35,034 bases of DNA from Thermomicrobium sp. CFH 73360 (lineage in GTDB: Bacteria; Chloroflexota; Chloroflexia; Thermomicrobiales; Thermomicrobiaceae): the NCBI RefSeq assembly GCF_023806465.1, contig NZ_JAMSLS010000012.1:1-35034 (forward strand). Direction: 5' to 3'. Shown piece after piece: positions 28,135-34,208 of the stretch (the stretch's first letter is position 1; every line of letters starts with the position of its first letter). The position numbers and the translations under genes are program-made. Below the pieces are notes generated by a model, which was not told the DNA's origin, ran no database searches, and was given only the letters and a program-made list of their open reading frames with translations.

Positions 28135-28454
28135 CACCATTCCTCCCGTGGCGATTGTGATGGAACTGTAGCTCCAGCGCAAGGGACGGCTCCGAGGCGG
28201 AGCAGAGGCTGACAATCGGACAGGGGCACGGACCTCGACGGTCGGCGCCTCTCACGTGGAGGAACGTGCTGCGCGGCCGGCCGGGCCGACTCCCGCTCGT
28301 TCACGCTGCACTCACACGCACGAACGGCGACATGAGACACGCCCCGGCGAGATGCACCTCGCGGCGGGGGGGTGCAGAGAGGCCGAGCTGTGCCGCCCGC
28401 TGTCTTGTCGGCTCTTCATCGTTTCGGTAGACGCATGCGCTCCACGATCAGGCG

Positions 28455-28670
28455 TATACTCTTGTGGCTGCCTGGCGCAGCCGTGATGGTCGGTGTGCCA
28501 GCAAACAGCTACCGGAGACGCTGGAGGGAACAGGGCGATGCGAGAAGGCCCGAGTCCACAGCGCCCAGTGCTCCGGTCGGGTGGGACAGTGAACCGGTAG
28601 GGCTTGCCTCCACCACGCGGTACGCCGTCCCCGGACCGGATGACAGCTGGGGCACGAAAGGGGGTACCGC
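28455..28670 (+). promoter_or_regulatory. Long structured leader with an inverted repeat covering the start codon (RNA-switch candidate)
   Basis: A -10-like TATACT lies at 28455-28460 (no good -35). The ~200-base leader that follows contains a hairpin GGCTGC/GCAGCC at 28467-28483, a CCAGC/GCTGG pair near 28498-28525 and CCGGT/ACCGG around 28573-28597. CCACGCGGTAC (28613-28623) is a perfect 11-base inverted repeat of GTACCGCGTGG (28664-28674). The latter arm begins at the last base of the Shine-Dalgarno sequence AAAGGGGG (28657-28664) and includes the GTG start at 28671. An alternative pairing, GGTGG (28580-28584) with CCACC (28610-28614), overlaps the 5' arm and could compete. No known riboswitch class was recognised; TPP, cobalamin and SAM signatures were looked for and not found intact. 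Confidence 0.5.
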
Positions 28671-30437
28671 GTGGTCGGCCGTGTGTGGCCATTCCGCGTC
28701 GAGCGTCAGTCACTGCAACGGATCCGCGTGTCGTGGTGGGCCGATCTTGTCGCCTTCCTCGTGCTCGTACTCGTCCTCTTCGGGGTGATCGAGGTCGCGG
28801 CTCGCTGGATCGGCCCGATGACCTCAGAGACCACGCTCGACCTTTCTGCCTGGAACCTGCCACTCTACGCGCTCTTCTCGCTCGCACGGATGACGGCGGC
28901 TTTCACCGCTGCACTCGGCTTCGGCCTCGTCTACGGGCGGCTGGCTGCAGCAGACCCGCGGCTGGAGCATGTCCTCCTGCCAGTGTTGGACATTCTCCAG
29001 AGTATCCCGATCCTCTCCTTCATGCCCGGCGTGGTCTTGGCCCTTGTCGCCCTGTTCCCGCACCGGAACCTCGGGGCAGAGCTCGCGGCGATCGTGCTGA
29101 TCTTCACAAGTCAGGCGTGGAACCTCGCTTTTAGCGTCTATCAGTCGGTGATCACCGTGCCAAAGGACCTCCGCGAGGCGGCGGCCATGCTGCACTTCAC
29201 CCGTTGGCAGCGTCTGACGCGGCTGGAACTCCCATTCGCCCTCGTGCCGCTGCTCTGGAACTCGGTCATGAGTTGGGCGGGGGGATGGTTCTTCCTGATG
29301 GCCTCTGAGCAGTTCACACTAGGGGAGCGGAGTTTCCGGCTACCGGGGCTCGGCGCCTACCTGGCAACGGCAGCTGACCAAGGTGACCTGCGCGCCCTCG
29401 GACTCGGACTGGTCGCGCTTGTGACAGTGATCGTGCTTGTCGATCGGCTCTTCTGGCAACCGCTCCTGGCCTGGAGCCATCGGTTCACCTTAGACGAGGT
29501 CTCCTCGGAGCTCCGTCCGGGAAGAGCGGCAGGGAGCTGGTTCCAGCGCTCACTCTTGGTCTCCTGGCTCTGGCTCCAGTGGATGCACCCACTTGTGCGA
29601 TGGCTCGACCACGTGTTCGATCGGCTTCTGAGACAGGAAGCGACGTACAAGCTGACCAGGCAGGAGCTGCCGTCGCGCTCGGAGACTACTCGTCATGGGC
29701 GACGGGCACTACCGTTACTCGCCGGGATGGGACTCTTCGCCCTGGTCGGAGGAACAGTGGCACGTGCCGCATTGGAGCTCCCGGCCAGTAGCTGGCTGGA
29801 GCTCGCCACAGCAGCGAGCATCTCGTTCGCCCGCGTCATGGTGACCTTGATCATCACCGCACTCTGGACTGTCCCGGTGGGCGTGGCGATTGGCACGAAC
29901 CCCTCACTCACAGCCCGTGTCCAGCCCGTCGTTCAGACGCTGGCCTCGATCCCTGCAACCGCACTCTTCCCCGCTATCGTGCTGGTGCTGCTGGGACTCC
30001 CGGGCGGACTGCAGATGGCAGCGCTGGTGTTGCTGGCACTGGGGACGCAGTGGTACGTCCTGTTCAACGTGATCGCCGGAGCCGCAGCGATCCCCCATGA
30101 CTTCATCGAGGCAGCAACGATCTTTCGGCTCACCTGGTGGCAGCGGTGGCAGCACCTACTGCTTCCGGCAATCTTCCCCTCACTGATCACCGGTCTCATC
30201 ACGGCTGCCGGCGGGGCATGGAACGCAACGATCGTTGCTGAGTATGTGGTCTTCCGTGGGGAGATCTACGTTGCCGGTGGCTTAGGGGCAGAGATCGCAA
30301 GTAGCGCGGCTACAGGAGACTACCAACGGCTTTTGGCAGCTACCGTCCTGATGGCCGCGATCGTCGTAGTCCTGAACCGCACATTCTGGGCACGACTGTA
30401 CCGCCTTTCGATGGAGCGATTCCAATTGGCACGGTAG
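28671..30437 (+). CDS. Double-domain ABC transporter permease (NitT/TauT type)
   Basis: A 588-residue membrane protein made of two binding-protein-dependent permease domains in one chain, about residues 60-265 and 370-575. Each carries an EAA coupling loop: REAAAMLHFTRWQR near 168 and FIEAATIFRLTWWQR near 478. Single-domain NitT/TauT permeases are about 250-280 residues, so this is a natural tandem fusion that forms the whole channel alone. The GTG start at 28671 follows AAAGGGGG by six bases and lies inside a strong RNA inverted repeat. The ATPase gene starts nine bases downstream. No substrate-binding protein gene is in the window. The family imports nitrate, sulfonates, bicarbonate or thiamine precursors; the substrate here is unknown. 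Confidence 0.9.
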   Translation: MVGRVWPFRVERQSLQRIRVSWWADLVAFLVLVLVLFGVIEVAARWIGPMTSETTLDLSAWNLPLYALFSLARMTAAFTAALGFGLVYGRLAAADPRLEHVLLPVLDILQSIPILSFMPGVVLALVALFPHRNLGAELAAIVLIFTSQAWNLAFSVYQSVITVPKDLREAAAMLHFTRWQRLTRLELPFALVPLLWNSVMSWAGGWFFLMASEQFTLGERSFRLPGLGAYLATAADQGDLRALGLGLVALVTVIVLVDRLFWQPLLAWSHRFTLDEVSSELRPGRAAGSWFQRSLLVSWLWLQWMHPLVRWLDHVFDRLLRQEATYKLTRQELPSRSETTRHGRRALPLLAGMGLFALVGGTVARAALELPASSWLELATAASISFARVMVTLIITALWTVPVGVAIGTNPSLTARVQPVVQTLASIPATALFPAIVLVLLGLPGGLQMAALVLLALGTQWYVLFNVIAGAAAIPHDFIEAATIFRLTWWQRWQHLLLPAIFPSLITGLITAAGGAWNATIVAEYVVFRGEIYVAGGLGAEIASSAATGDYQRLLAATVLMAAIVVVLNRTFWARLYRLSMERFQLAR

Positions 30438-30446
30438 GAGGGTAAG

Positions 30447-31790
30447 GTGACGGCAACGGCCACTGCAGGACGGATAACGGCACGGATTCCGACGCTGCTC
30501 GCTGCCGAAGAGGTGAGCAAGTACTACGGGGCCGATGGAAGTCATGTCTTGGTGCTCGACCGCATCACGCTCGAGCTGCGGGACGGGGAGTTCGTTGCGC
30601 TTCTTGGTCCTTCGGGCTCGGGCAAATCGACGCTCCTCCGGATCCTTGCGGGGCTCCTCTCTCCGTCGAGCGGAGAAGTGCGGGTGCACGGGGAACCGCT
30701 TCGCGGTGTCAACCCGTTCGCGGCGATGGTCTTCCAGTCGTTCGCACTCTTCCCCTGGTTGACCGTCCTGCAGAACGTCGAACTCGGCCTGTTACACAAG
30801 CGGGGACTGAAGTCGGAGGAGCGGCGCCAGCGAGCCCTGGCAGCCCTCGACCTTGTTGGACTGGACGGGTTCGAGCACGCCTATCCGCGCGAACTCTCTG
30901 GCGGGATGAAGCAGCGGGTCGGCTTCGCCCGGGCGCTGGTTCGTGAACCGGAAATGCTGTTCTTGGATGAGCCGTTCTCTGCACTGGACGTCTTGGCCGC
31001 CGAGAACTTACGGGGCGACCTACTCGACTTGTGGTTAGCGCGCAAGATTCCAACCCGGGCCATCCTCATGGTCACCCACAATATCGACGAAGCAGTCACG
31101 CTGGCCGACCGCCTCCTGATCTTCAGTGCCAATCCTGGGCGGATCCGTGCAGAACTCCCTGGATTGCCGCTTGCCGAGCGGCTGTCAAAAGGACAGACGC
31201 ATGCCGAGCTGGTCGATACGATCTACCGCATCATGACCAACCCACGGGAAGAGATCGAACGACTACTCCCACAAGCCCGCATCCTCCAGCGACCAGCCGC
31301 CCCGACCTCTCCGGTGCTCCCCCACGCCGACGTTGGAGAGTTGACCGGTTTTCTGGAACGGCTCACCGCACTCGGCGGACGCGAAGACCTGTTCGAACTC
31401 GCCCGCGACCTGCAGCTCGAAGCCGACGAACTCCTCCCGCTCGTCGAAGCAGCGCAGCTGCTCGAGTTCACCCGAGTGGAGGAGGGCGATGTCGTCCTCA
31501 CCGAGACCGGGCGCACCTTCGCGACAGCTGACCTGTTGCAGCGGAAGGAACTCTTCCGGCAGATCGTGGCGGAACGGGTCGAGTGGATTCGGGAGATTGT
31601 GTGGACACTCCGCGTCGCTCCACGGCACCGTCAGGCAGAGGATTGGATCGTACGCCGCCTGGAGGAGCACTTCAGTCCAGCGGAAGCCCGACGGCAACTC
31701 GAAACAGCAATCGAGTGGGGGCGGTATGCGGAACTCTTCGCCTACGACGAGCATTCTGGGATCCTCTATTTAGAGGAGAACGGAGCATGA
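30447..31790 (+). CDS. ABC transporter ATP-binding protein with AAA-associated C-terminal domain (PF09821)
   Basis: A 447-residue peripheral ATPase. The nucleotide-binding domain (about 18-260) has Walker A GPSGSGKST (54-62), Q-loop VFQSFALFPW (95-104), signature LSGGMKQR (150-157), Walker B LFLDEP (171-176) and the switch His211 in VTHN. The C-terminal ~150 residues form the AAA-associated domain found on a subset of NitT/TauT-type ATPases, thought to be regulatory. GGAGGG is four bases before the GTG at 30447, and the gap to the permease gene is nine bases. Two copies of this protein would power the double-domain permease. The solute-binding protein must be encoded elsewhere. Confidence 0.92.
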   Translation: MTATATAGRITARIPTLLAAEEVSKYYGADGSHVLVLDRITLELRDGEFVALLGPSGSGKSTLLRILAGLLSPSSGEVRVHGEPLRGVNPFAAMVFQSFALFPWLTVLQNVELGLLHKRGLKSEERRQRALAALDLVGLDGFEHAYPRELSGGMKQRVGFARALVREPEMLFLDEPFSALDVLAAENLRGDLLDLWLARKIPTRAILMVTHNIDEAVTLADRLLIFSANPGRIRAELPGLPLAERLSKGQTHAELVDTIYRIMTNPREEIERLLPQARILQRPAAPTSPVLPHADVGELTGFLERLTALGGREDLFELARDLQLEADELLPLVEAAQLLEFTRVEEGDVVLTETGRTFATADLLQRKELFRQIVAERVEWIREIVWTLRVAPRHRQAEDWIVRRLEEHFSPAEARRQLETAIEWGRYAELFAYDEHSGILYLEENGA

Positions 31791-32143
31791 CCAGGAGAAG
31801 GTAGTCCCGGTGAAAATGCCTGTTGCCCTCCCGCATGAGAACCGATCGTCCGGCAGGCAAGAGGAGACCAGGCGAGCACTGCGGGAAGACCCCGGTAGAC
31901 GAGCAGCTCCCATCTGGTCTTCCTACTCCGACTCGGCCAGGAACCGGTCTCCATTCCATCGCGAGAAGAGCCGCTGGATACAACACGGGAGACGCCTTGG
32001 GAAGGCGCGGCCACCTTTTCACTCCGCATGCATCCAGGCGCCCGGACGGGGTAGGAAGTCGCGCGGACAAGTGGAAGGTGAGTCCAGGTCCACCTGGGCG
32101 GCTCGGCACCGATTGAGTAGCATTCGCGATGGAGGTGACACTC
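31791..32143. other. Gene-free stretch between the ATPase and sirtuin genes
   Basis: About 350 bases. Opposing short frames are present but none has a supported start or a family match. I found no T-tract terminator after the ATPase and no strong -35/-10 pair for the sirtuin, though it must hold both functions. Confidence 0.4.
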
Positions 32144-32959
32144 GTGAGAGAGGAACGTCCCCTCACGCCCGAACAACGGCGTCTGGTTGAGGTGATTGCC
32201 GATGCACTCTATCAGCGCGGGCCAGGCATGGCCTTTACCGGGGCAGGGATCTCCACCGAATCGGGAATCCCGGACTACCGGGGCCCAAACGGGTTGTGGT
32301 CACGACAGAATCCGACGCACTTTCGTGACTTTCTCACTGATCCCGCTGTGCGGCTCCGCTACTGGGAGCGTCGGCGCGCCCGCTACCCAGTGCTCGCCGC
32401 TGCCGAGCCGAATGACGGGCACCGTGCACTTGCTCGCTTGCAGGTGGCCGGGTATCTCGACGTGATTGTGACGCAGAATATTGACGGCTTGCACCAGAAG
32501 GCAGGAAGCCCACCGGAGCGGGTGATCGAGCTCCATGGAACAGCGCATTTGATCCGCTGTCTTTCCTGTGAGGCACGATGGCCAGCAGAGGCGTTCGATC
32601 CGGGCCCGCCGGGAACCGTCCCCGACTGCCCGCTCTGCGGCGGCCTCGTCAAGGAGGCAACCGTTGCCTTTGGCGAGCCGGTACCACGCGAGCTCCTCGA
32701 GCGAGCGCTTACCCTGGCCGAAGCGACACCGGTGATGCTCGTCATTGGGACATCGCTTGCAGTCGTACCGGCAGCGCACGTGCCACGCCGGGCTGCTCGG
32801 TCCGGAGCATTCGTCGCCATCGTGAACGACGAGCCGACACCACTCGACCGCGAAGCGCACGTCGTCGTGCGGGGACGAGCTGGAACAGCACTCGCTTATT
32901 TGGCGGACCTCCTCACGGGAGATCGCCTCAAAGCGGATCAAGGACTTACCGTTCGCTAG
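32144..32959 (+). CDS. NAD-dependent protein deacylase (sirtuin, Sir2/CobB family)
   Basis: This 271-residue cytosolic enzyme would remove acetyl or longer acyl groups from lysines using NAD+. Diagnostic motifs are GAGISTESGIPDYRGPNGLW (33-52), QNIDGLH (111-117), the catalytic His131 in ELHGTAH and a zinc site formed by Cys139-x2-Cys142 and Cys162-x2-Cys165. GTSLAVVPAAHVPRRA near the C-terminus completes the Rossmann fold. The Tyr/Arg pair marking CobB-type desuccinylases is not evident. An ATG at 32129 is in frame, but GGAGGTG lies between it and GTG 32144, six bases from the latter, so the GTG is the better start. The 3' end overlaps the convergent beta-helix gene by 14 bases. Confidence 0.93.
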   Translation: MREERPLTPEQRRLVEVIADALYQRGPGMAFTGAGISTESGIPDYRGPNGLWSRQNPTHFRDFLTDPAVRLRYWERRRARYPVLAAAEPNDGHRALARLQVAGYLDVIVTQNIDGLHQKAGSPPERVIELHGTAHLIRCLSCEARWPAEAFDPGPPGTVPDCPLCGGLVKEATVAFGEPVPRELLERALTLAEATPVMLVIGTSLAVVPAAHVPRRAARSGAFVAIVNDEPTPLDREAHVVVRGRAGTALAYLADLLTGDRLKADQGLTVR

Positions 32960-34208
32960 AGGGCATATCGAGCAGCACATTCTCTGCTGAAGCGCCATCG
33001 ATGCGCCACGGTTCACACTCAGCGCAGTAGCGATTCCCCTCGAGACGTGTTCCCGTAGTGTGTAGCAGGTAGACAGCACACTGCCCGTTGCTGATGAAAT
33101 GGTTATCGCGGAGTTCGTGACTGGTTGAGACGCACCGGTCGGGGAAATCGCGGTTGGCCGGATTGAGGGTGAAAGCGACGCCGTAACGACCGTTCCGGGC
33201 GATGAGGTTGTTCCGGAGGAAACCTCGCGCGCCATGCTCCCAATGGACACCGTCGACATGATTGTCAGTTATGAGGTTTCCCTCGAGGACAGTATCGGTG
33301 GAAAAACCGAGCCAGAAGCCGAAGTTGCTAAAGCACGCTCGATTACGACGGAAAACGTTCCCGCGGGAGAAGGTGGCTTCAAACGCATTATTGGGTGAGT
33401 AGGAACCGTCATTTCCGACGATCAGGTTGTCATTGGATGGTGGGCTGAACTGGTTCCCGAGGAAGAAGCCGTCACCCGACCAGCGCAGATCGTTACCGGC
33501 AACGAGATTGCGGTGGGAACCACAGGTGAGGAGGATGCCAGCGGCATCGCAGCCAGTGCCACCGCAGCGATTGACGTGATGCGCACGGTTGCGCTGGAGG
33601 CGGCAGTCAGAGGAACCATGGAGACGGATTCCCCAGGCGGTGTTGTATGAGAGGTCACAGTCGGCGATGACGAGTCCTCGGCAGGAGATCGCATCGACCC
33701 CGACATCTTGTTGCTGGGCGTGGGTGCGGGCAACGCGGCTGGTATCGACCCGGACGAATCGGATGCCCCCGCCTGCCGTCGCCTCGACCCGATTGATGTC
33801 GAGGAATGTCCCCTCGCTCGCACCGTTCTGGGAGAAATCGCAGTTCTCGATGAGGAGTTCCTCGCAATCGATCGCTTCAAGAGCCCAGGCGTAGCCGCGA
33901 ATCGTCAGGTTGCGCAGGACAACATGGCGACGGCCGCGAAGAGCGATTCCGATGCCACCACGTCCACCTCCATCGAGGATCGCACCCTGACCATCCAGAA
34001 CGATTTCGTCAGCAGTGATACGGAGAGCACCGTCACCAGGATCAGGAAGGAAGTAGAGCCCCGGACCAAGCTCGAGCGAGCTGGTCACAATGAGACCAGC
34101 GCGCGGCTCGCGCCAGCGACCAAGGAGCCGCTGCACAATCGACCAGCGCCTCACGGCCAGACACCGTCGGCAGAGACGGCGGCCAGTACCCCGCAGGCTG
34201 CGCAGCAC
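32946..34208 (-). CDS. Right-handed parallel beta-helix repeat protein (NosD/pectate-lyase-like fold)
   Basis: A protein of up to 420 residues built from about 12 short repeats of the type N-x-(L/I)-x-x-N, as in NLTIRGYAWALEAIDCEELLIENCDFS and LEGNLITDNHVDGVHWEHGARGFLRNNLI. This is the ladder of a right-handed parallel beta-helix. Such proteins are often carbohydrate-active or surface proteins, but no catalytic residues can be assigned. The opening (ELGPGLYFLPDPGDG then ADEIVLDGQGA) is the usual cap of the fold. No convincing signal peptide precedes it, which is unusual for the family. The start is uncertain: GTG 34208 has GAGG almost abutting it, and GTG 34154 is an alternative. It overlaps the sirtuin gene tail-to-tail. 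Confidence 0.8.
   Translation of the reverse strand: MLRSLRGTGRRLCRRCLAVRRWSIVQRLLGRWREPRAGLIVTSSLELGPGLYFLPDPGDGALRITADEIVLDGQGAILDGGGRGGIGIALRGRRHVVLRNLTIRGYAWALEAIDCEELLIENCDFSQNGASEGTFLDINRVEATAGGGIRFVRVDTSRVARTHAQQQDVGVDAISCRGLVIADCDLSYNTAWGIRLHGSSDCRLQRNRAHHVNRCGGTGCDAAGILLTCGSHRNLVAGNDLRWSGDGFFLGNQFSPPSNDNLIVGNDGSYSPNNAFEATFSRGNVFRRNRACFSNFGFWLGFSTDTVLEGNLITDNHVDGVHWEHGARGFLRNNLIARNGRYGVAFTLNPANRDFPDRCVSTSHELRDNHFISNGQCAVYLLHTTGTRLEGNRYCAECEPWRIDGASAENVLLDMPSSER

Follow-up and report, generated by a model that had tools for sequence, protein, structure and literature searches.

A probable leader-peptide attenuator tied to Mg2+ supply upstream of a putative Mg2+ ABC transporter gene in Thermomicrobium

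The leader of a fused ABC permease gene of Thermomicrobium sp. CFH 73360 is probably a translational attenuator tied to Mg2+ supply, which would act on the gene of a putative Mg2+ ABC transporter. Within the window, that is the whole stretch of 35,034 nucleotides that was analysed, this leader contains a conserved short upstream open reading frame (uORF) and two alternative hairpins, one of which buries the start codon of the permease, and both the uORF and the transporter are tied to Mg2+ genes. Close permease orthologs (59% identity) occur in only two others among the 158 genomes of the class, namely G004, from the same genus as the window (its locus L004 is identical to L032, the uncultured Thermomicrobium MAG that is the nearest named relative), and G009 (locus L003), from the same family.

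The leader peptide and the start-hiding hairpin

The features of the leader and of the two genes that follow it are as follows.

28455-28460, + strand: probable -10 element TATACT (the corresponding site reads TATACT in G004 and TACACT in G009)
28512-28524, + strand: segment 1, CCGGAGACGCTGG, which pairs with CCAGTGCTCCGG (28565-28576) in the MFE and centroid structures of the leader, in competition with the A:C pairing
28523-28527, + strand: Shine-Dalgarno sequence GGAGG of the leader ORF, found in all three Thermomicrobia leaders 8-10 nt 5' of ATG
28538-28600, + strand: leader peptide ORF, MREGPSPQRPVLRSGGTVNR (then stop), conserved in G004 and G009, with MDxGPS uORFs in other Chloroflexota
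28572-28581, + strand: segment A, which lies within the uORF and forms the 5' arm of the anti-sequestor hairpin (28572-28640 in full)
28612-28623, + strand: segment B, 5' arm of the start-hiding stem, with compensatory changes in G009 and G004
28631-28640, + strand: segment C, which pairs with A as an inverted repeat
28657-28664, + strand: Shine-Dalgarno sequence AAAGGGGG of the permease, 6 nt 5' of GTG
28664-28675, + strand: segment D, 3' arm of the start-hiding stem, including the GTG start (28671-28673)
28671-30437, + strand: fused double ABC permease of 588 aa with two BPD_transp_1 stretches (Pfam)
30447-31790, + strand: ABC ATPase with a C-terminal AAA_assoc_C domain (Pfam), in the same operon as the permease

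The transcript would start just 3' of the TATACT element; a scan with the sigma-70 consensus returned no full promoter. The best conserved block upstream of the permease consists of GGAGG, a gap of 8-10 nt and ATG, from which M-x-[ED]-G-P-S is read. The uORF of the window comprises 20 codons and departs from the consensus at position 2, with R for D, and the orthologous peptides read MDEGPSLSGLGRWLAGR (then stop) in G004 and MHDDGPSPRRQPFLPVGLVS (then stop) in G009, the latter with one additional in-frame codon. Acidic and proline residues come early in the peptides MREGPSP, MDEGPS, MHDDGPSP and VDDSSGPRP, and this character is weaker in MDAGPSSS, which has a single acid. When a degenerate pattern combining the Shine-Dalgarno sequence and the uORF start was searched for in the 158 genomes of this class, with the reversed pattern as a control, it recovered the three leaders together with G014 and G027, in which the motif lies out of the ATG frame, versus 4 matches for the reversed control.

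Outside the uORF, the leaders of the window, G004 and G009 hardly align, and a conserved aptamer beyond the uORF was therefore rejected. This bears on the earlier note, a reading of the letters alone, which had proposed an aptamer joined to a translation-controlling platform, perhaps as a new class of riboswitch. The control layout, with a conserved start-hiding hairpin and a competing pairing, holds, and so do the several upstream hairpins, but the same stretch also harbours the 20-codon ORF, missed at that time, and the proposed aptamer gives way to it. A ligand-binding riboswitch made of an aptamer at 28455-28600 and the B:D stem as its expression platform would suit the alternative structures, the start-hiding stem and the upstream hairpins, but the conserved block is coding, as indicated by its Shine-Dalgarno sequence, its in-frame indel and changes mostly at third positions, the three leaders share little beyond it, and the Rfam scan of 28143-28800 returned no family at the gathering threshold and none up to E = 10, all of which makes such a riboswitch, new or known, very unlikely.

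The 11-bp perfect inverted repeat previously described over the GTG start is exact, CCACGCGGTAC (28613-28623) being the reverse complement of GTACCGCGTGG (28664-28674), and it extends by one outer pair (ACCACGCGGTAC, 28612-28623, and GTACCGCGTGGT, 28664-28675) into 12 perfect bp enclosing a loop of 40 nt. Its 3' arm starts at the last G of the Shine-Dalgarno sequence. In G009, the arms ATCACGCGGCAC and GTGCCGCGTGAT form 12 perfect pairs, two of them with changes on both sides relative to the window, and in G004 the arms TCCCACGGTAGC and GCTGCCGTGTGGA form 12 pairs, interrupted by one bulge and including one G-U. In all three leaders the GTG start lies inside the 3' arm, 6-7 nt 3' of the Shine-Dalgarno sequence. 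The start-hiding hairpin is thus real, and compensatory changes accompany its conservation in two orthologous leaders from the same family; a lack of conservation or covariation, which by the earlier note would have refuted the proposal, was not observed. Among the 101 homolog leaders with an assigned start, the longest perfect repeats hiding the start codon or the Shine-Dalgarno sequence belong to the window and G009 (12 bp each) and to L078 (11 bp). The start-hiding hairpin is present in the three close leaders and one distant leader only. Repeats of 8 bp masking the Shine-Dalgarno sequence or the start codon also occur in three Anaerolineae homologs (L063, L067 and L096), and are possibly other attenuators.

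The B:D hairpin alone folds with z = -3.5. A perfect start-codon stem of at least 12 bp arises with a frequency of 0.00025 (0.025%) in dinucleotide shuffles of the leader, which is remarkable for a single gene but amounts to about one such stem per genome, and it is therefore conservation that decides on function. This frequency, together with the whole leader folding no better than many shuffles (z = -1.15), would agree with a functionless hairpin formed by chance in GC-rich DNA; against it stand the compensatory changes in the orthologs and the first rank of the stem among the 101 leaders, next to two others that carry the peptide, and chance retains a negligible probability. The arms could also act as DNA, as two half-sites 52 bp apart bound by a regulator, and their perfection and the near-integral number of turns between them (about five helical turns) fit such an operator. 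The spacing differs among the orthologs, with loops of 40, 56 and 47 nt, exact copies of the arms are absent from the rest of the genome, and copies with one mismatch number 28 versus 27 in the control, which leaves the operator highly improbable.

The competing pairing and the proposed switch

The 3' half of the uORF (segment A) can base-pair with the loop of the start-hiding hairpin (segment C), the two segments reading TCCGGTCGGG and CCGGACCGGA in the window, CTGGTTGGCCGGGAG and CTTCCCGGCCAGCCAG in G004, and CCGTTCCTACCGGTGGGGC and GCCCCTCACTGGTAGGGGCGG in G009. The competing pairing GGTGG/CCACC pointed out in the earlier note does exist, but merely as a part of this larger hairpin, whose core joins 28572-28581 to 28631-28640. 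In transcripts ending before D, the A:C pairing has a calculated probability of 1.0 in the window, G004 and G009, and once a ribosome is placed at the uORF stop, A:C cannot form and B:D then forms. The z of the A:C hairpin against shuffles is -1.9 in the window, and -4.7 and -3.5 in the two orthologous leaders. Its consensus shows two-sided changes in 9 of 25 pairs across the three sequences, many pairs being broken in one sequence, and the A:C duplex alone is not significant in the window (p = 0.17). The pairing of segment 1 has an equivalent in G009 and a less clear one in G004. According to these folding models, it depends on where the ribosome stands on the uORF which of two mutually exclusive structures the leader can adopt. 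At equilibrium with D present and a ribosome on codons 4-7, G009 keeps A:C, and no switching was seen in the window and G004, where B:D beats A:C even with the ribosome on codon 7; a kinetic switch, set during transcription, must consequently be assumed for these two leaders.

The leader would accordingly work as a leader-peptide attenuator of translation, in which the uORF is read first. A ribosome reaching the uORF stop would cover A during the synthesis of the downstream RNA, allowing B:D to form and to bury the GTG start (OFF). A ribosome that pauses or drops off in the early conserved codons (E-G-P-S-P) would leave A free to pair with C before D is transcribed, trapping B inside that hairpin and leaving D free, so that the permease would be translated (ON). 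The signal would most likely be a shortage of Mg2+, under which ribosomes weaken on sequences of this kind. An attenuator coupled to the uORF is very probable, and Mg2+ is the physiological signal with good probability; ribosome drop-off at the EGPSP codons may be the sensor, a suggestion drawn from known systems that we put forward tentatively.

Relatives of the leader peptide and the link to Mg2+

A search of 400 Chloroflexota genomes for ATGGAYGMNGGNCCNRSNAGY (motif M-D-[E/D/A]-G-P-x-S) gave 27 matches in 25 genomes, versus about 4 for the reversed pattern. The same fused ABC permease lies downstream in nine of these matches. In six others, all from one genus, the same uORF precedes a PRC-MgtE_N-CBS-MgtE protein (Pfam-checked in G203 and G219), and in one match, L193 (G240), a single operon combines an M-box and an MDAGPSSS uORF with two Nramp genes and the gene of a PRC-MgtE_N-CBS protein that is devoid of the MgtE channel domain. 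As for the remaining matches, one runs off the end of its contig and the others, mostly lacking a Shine-Dalgarno sequence, look like chance. Several motif loci come from the same species as loci found through the protein, and the two sets therefore overlap. Acidic uORFs occur in 15 of 104 homolog leaders versus 4.8 in shuffles, an excess which comes from a few lineages, is partly redundant and is thus not counted as independent proof; taken by itself, the looser scan for the motif does not reach significance (15 versus 9.1, maximum 15).

Alternative pairings also accompany the peptide in distant loci. In the six loci of the MgtE group, all of which contain the three segments involved, TACTCGATGAG can pair either with the uORF tail CTCATCGAGTA or with the later TATCGAGTAA. 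L078, from another Chloroflexota MAG, combines a uORF starting with VDDSSGPRPYQ with its 11-bp repeat, which hides the Shine-Dalgarno sequence and whose loop holds an intrinsic terminator; when a ribosome occupies codon 7 and the RNA extends to the terminator, the uORF pairs with the terminator instead, although the A:C duplex test is not significant in this leader (p = 0.62). Four Dictyobacter leaders carry MD[ED]GP[GTA]S[PS] with an intrinsic terminator behind it. At about -320 from the permease match, L035, L040, L076 and L107 have a second conserved uORF, MNAD[P/A/S]EQR, which reads VDADPEPDQ in L045 (at -316); this second Dictyobacter uORF is located 3' of the MDxGP uORF and its terminator, and its acidic start is reminiscent of MgtL.

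Among 16 aligned leaders, pairwise differences at codon positions 1, 2 and 3 amount to 28, 79 and 239, respectively; Pro5 is encoded by all four proline codons and Gly4 by three glycine codons, both residues being invariant. The serine codon (codons 6-7; codon 6 in the window, 28553-28555) is AGT in 16 of 16 leaders, never TCN, a constancy which reflects a codon- or RNA-level constraint left unexplained by the attenuator model. The attenuator could be real and yet respond to some other signal, such as the charging of prolyl- or seryl-tRNA, the activity of EF-P or ABC-F proteins, or a general translation stress, with Mg2+ as an indirect cue. The conserved residues are indeed G-P-S, with no run of acids, the invariant AGT hints at a codon effect, and charged tRNA-Pro and ATP are the signals for known attenuators in the mgtCBRU operon of Salmonella (PMC8092293). 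This reading, which we regard as unlikely, has to face the occurrence of the peptide before three unrelated families of Mg2+-linked transporters and behind M-boxes, and the use of all four proline codons speaks against a codon-specific tRNA sensor. Since relatives of the uORF precede several kinds of Mg2+ transporters, a Mg2+ switch read by the ribosome is probably at work, rather than a ligand-binding riboswitch.

Compared with curated families of nitrate, taurine and sulfonate permeases, the fused permease remains far below the cut-offs (ntrB 88/209 bits, TauC 50/342, SsuC 32/347), and on these scores it is related in fold to NitT/TauT-type permeases rather than a member of those functional families, to which it had first been likened. 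Of the 80 best homolog loci, seven, from Clostridium, Sarcina, Ktedonobacteria and MAGs, have an M-box upstream of the permease homolog. MDAGPSSS lies 3' of the M-box in L036, L058 and L079, and M-boxes also occur at the uORF loci L170, L174 and L193. MgtE adjoins permease homologs in about 13 loci, mostly from one Chloroflexales-type lineage. The NitT/TauT substrates, thiamine precursors and cobalamin suggested earlier as ligands are not favoured, the M-box, MgtE, CorA and Nramp near the relatives indicating Mg2+. The named importers of Mg2+ are CorA, MgtE, MgtA/B and NrmT, and association with an M-box correctly predicted Mg2+ transport by NrmT (PMC4072509); by the same logic, the ABC system is a candidate Mg2+ transporter, and the fused permease and its ATPase most likely form an ABC transporter of Mg2+ or a related divalent cation.

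The genome of the window contains one MgtE; no CorA and no M-box were found in it. A loss of MgtE from genomes possessing the ABC system was considered and rejected, as G000 and G004 do possess MgtE, truncated only where the contig stops. L120 and L121, from G010 and G014, two members of the family that lack this permease, display an M-box upstream of an MgtE gene. In G009, a same-strand CorA-like gene split by a frameshift (C3:858922-859787), either a pseudogene or an assembly error, lies directly upstream of the leader. The divergent neighbour of the permease matches the ThiO glycine oxidase family, and a ThiO-like gene is found upstream in G004 too. Further downstream in the window, a Sir2 family protein is encoded at 32129-32959 (+) and a NosD/beta-helix protein at 32946-34208 (-), the two genes being convergent with an overlap of 14 bp. 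Very short acidic ORFs between M-box and permease in Clostridium and Sarcina (VVTDTEDGDNY, L049:2895; MSIEDGGSY, L061:2819; MDTEEGCSYR, L068:2896) lie just before the ribosome-binding site of the permease, like the 8-aa mgtQ.

Comparison with known systems

To our knowledge, enteric bacteria are the only ones in which a translating ribosome is established as a sensor of Mg2+. The chances seem evenly balanced that two things hold together, namely that M-D-x-G-P-S peptides are a new Mg2+-regulatory family distributed over several lineages of Chloroflexota before ABC, MgtE and Nramp genes, some behind an M-box, and that the permease and the AAA_assoc_C ATPase are an ABC Mg2+ importer of a new class. 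If so, ribosome-based Mg2+ sensing would be either widespread or of repeated origin, occurring in a distant phylum, before unrelated transporters and sometimes together with an M-box, and the regulatory link would assign a predicted substrate, Mg2+, to a widespread and uncharacterised fused ABC transporter that is nitrate/sulfonate-like by fold only. No description of this leader peptide or of an ABC Mg2+ importer was found in the open-access papers searched; the proposed mode of working is the one known from mgtQ and mgtL, and the ABC Mg2+ importer, still unproven, is the more novel part.

In Salmonella mgtQ, the leader ORF of mgtB, stem-loops 1:2 and 3:4 alternate with 2:3, and the ribosome-binding site of the transporter gene is freed when translation of the uORF aborts (PMC8092293). 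The leader described here shares with it a short uORF in which acidic codons come early, stem-loops that exclude one another and a ribosome-binding site hidden in one of them, that of a Mg2+ transporter gene in mgtQ and of a predicted one here (PMC8092293). It differs by its peptides of 17-29 aa, their G-P-S motif, and a location at the beginning of the transcript, ahead of an ABC permease gene, whereas mgtQ encodes 8 aa between two genes of the operon, before a P-type ATPase gene (PMC8092293).

In E. coli MgtL, the EPDP start destabilises ribosomes at low Mg2+ (PMC11282234). Both leaders have acidic residues and proline in their first codons and a Mg2+ transporter gene downstream (PMC11282234), predicted as such here, and the short ORF of the window leader is preceded by a Shine-Dalgarno sequence (GGAGG). 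MgtL acts on Rho-dependent termination (PMC11282234 and work cited there), whereas the window leader apparently acts on the initiation of translation; L078 and the Dictyobacter leaders add intrinsic terminators. With its one acid, the MDAGPSSS of the M-box lineages is weaker than the EPDP of MgtL. No similarity of sequence to MgtL or MgtQ was seen by eye, the uORF peptides being too short to trace common descent, and the resemblance is likely due to convergence.

The M-box (ykoK, Mg2+, RF00380) governs genes for Mg2+ transport, homologs of this permease among them, and in several Chloroflexota it precedes the same leader peptide, but its sensor is an RNA aptamer, unlike a leader peptide; the covariance model RF00380 gave no match at gathering score in the window or its genome. 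The putative ABC Mg2+ importer falls outside the four classes of Mg2+ importers (PMC4072509). The genes of L193, assigned at the level of the Nramp family, combine an M-box with this leader peptide. In this respect, the Nramp-related and M-box-controlled NrmT offers a precedent in logic, by which an unexpected family of transporters has been tied to Mg2+ (PMC4072509).
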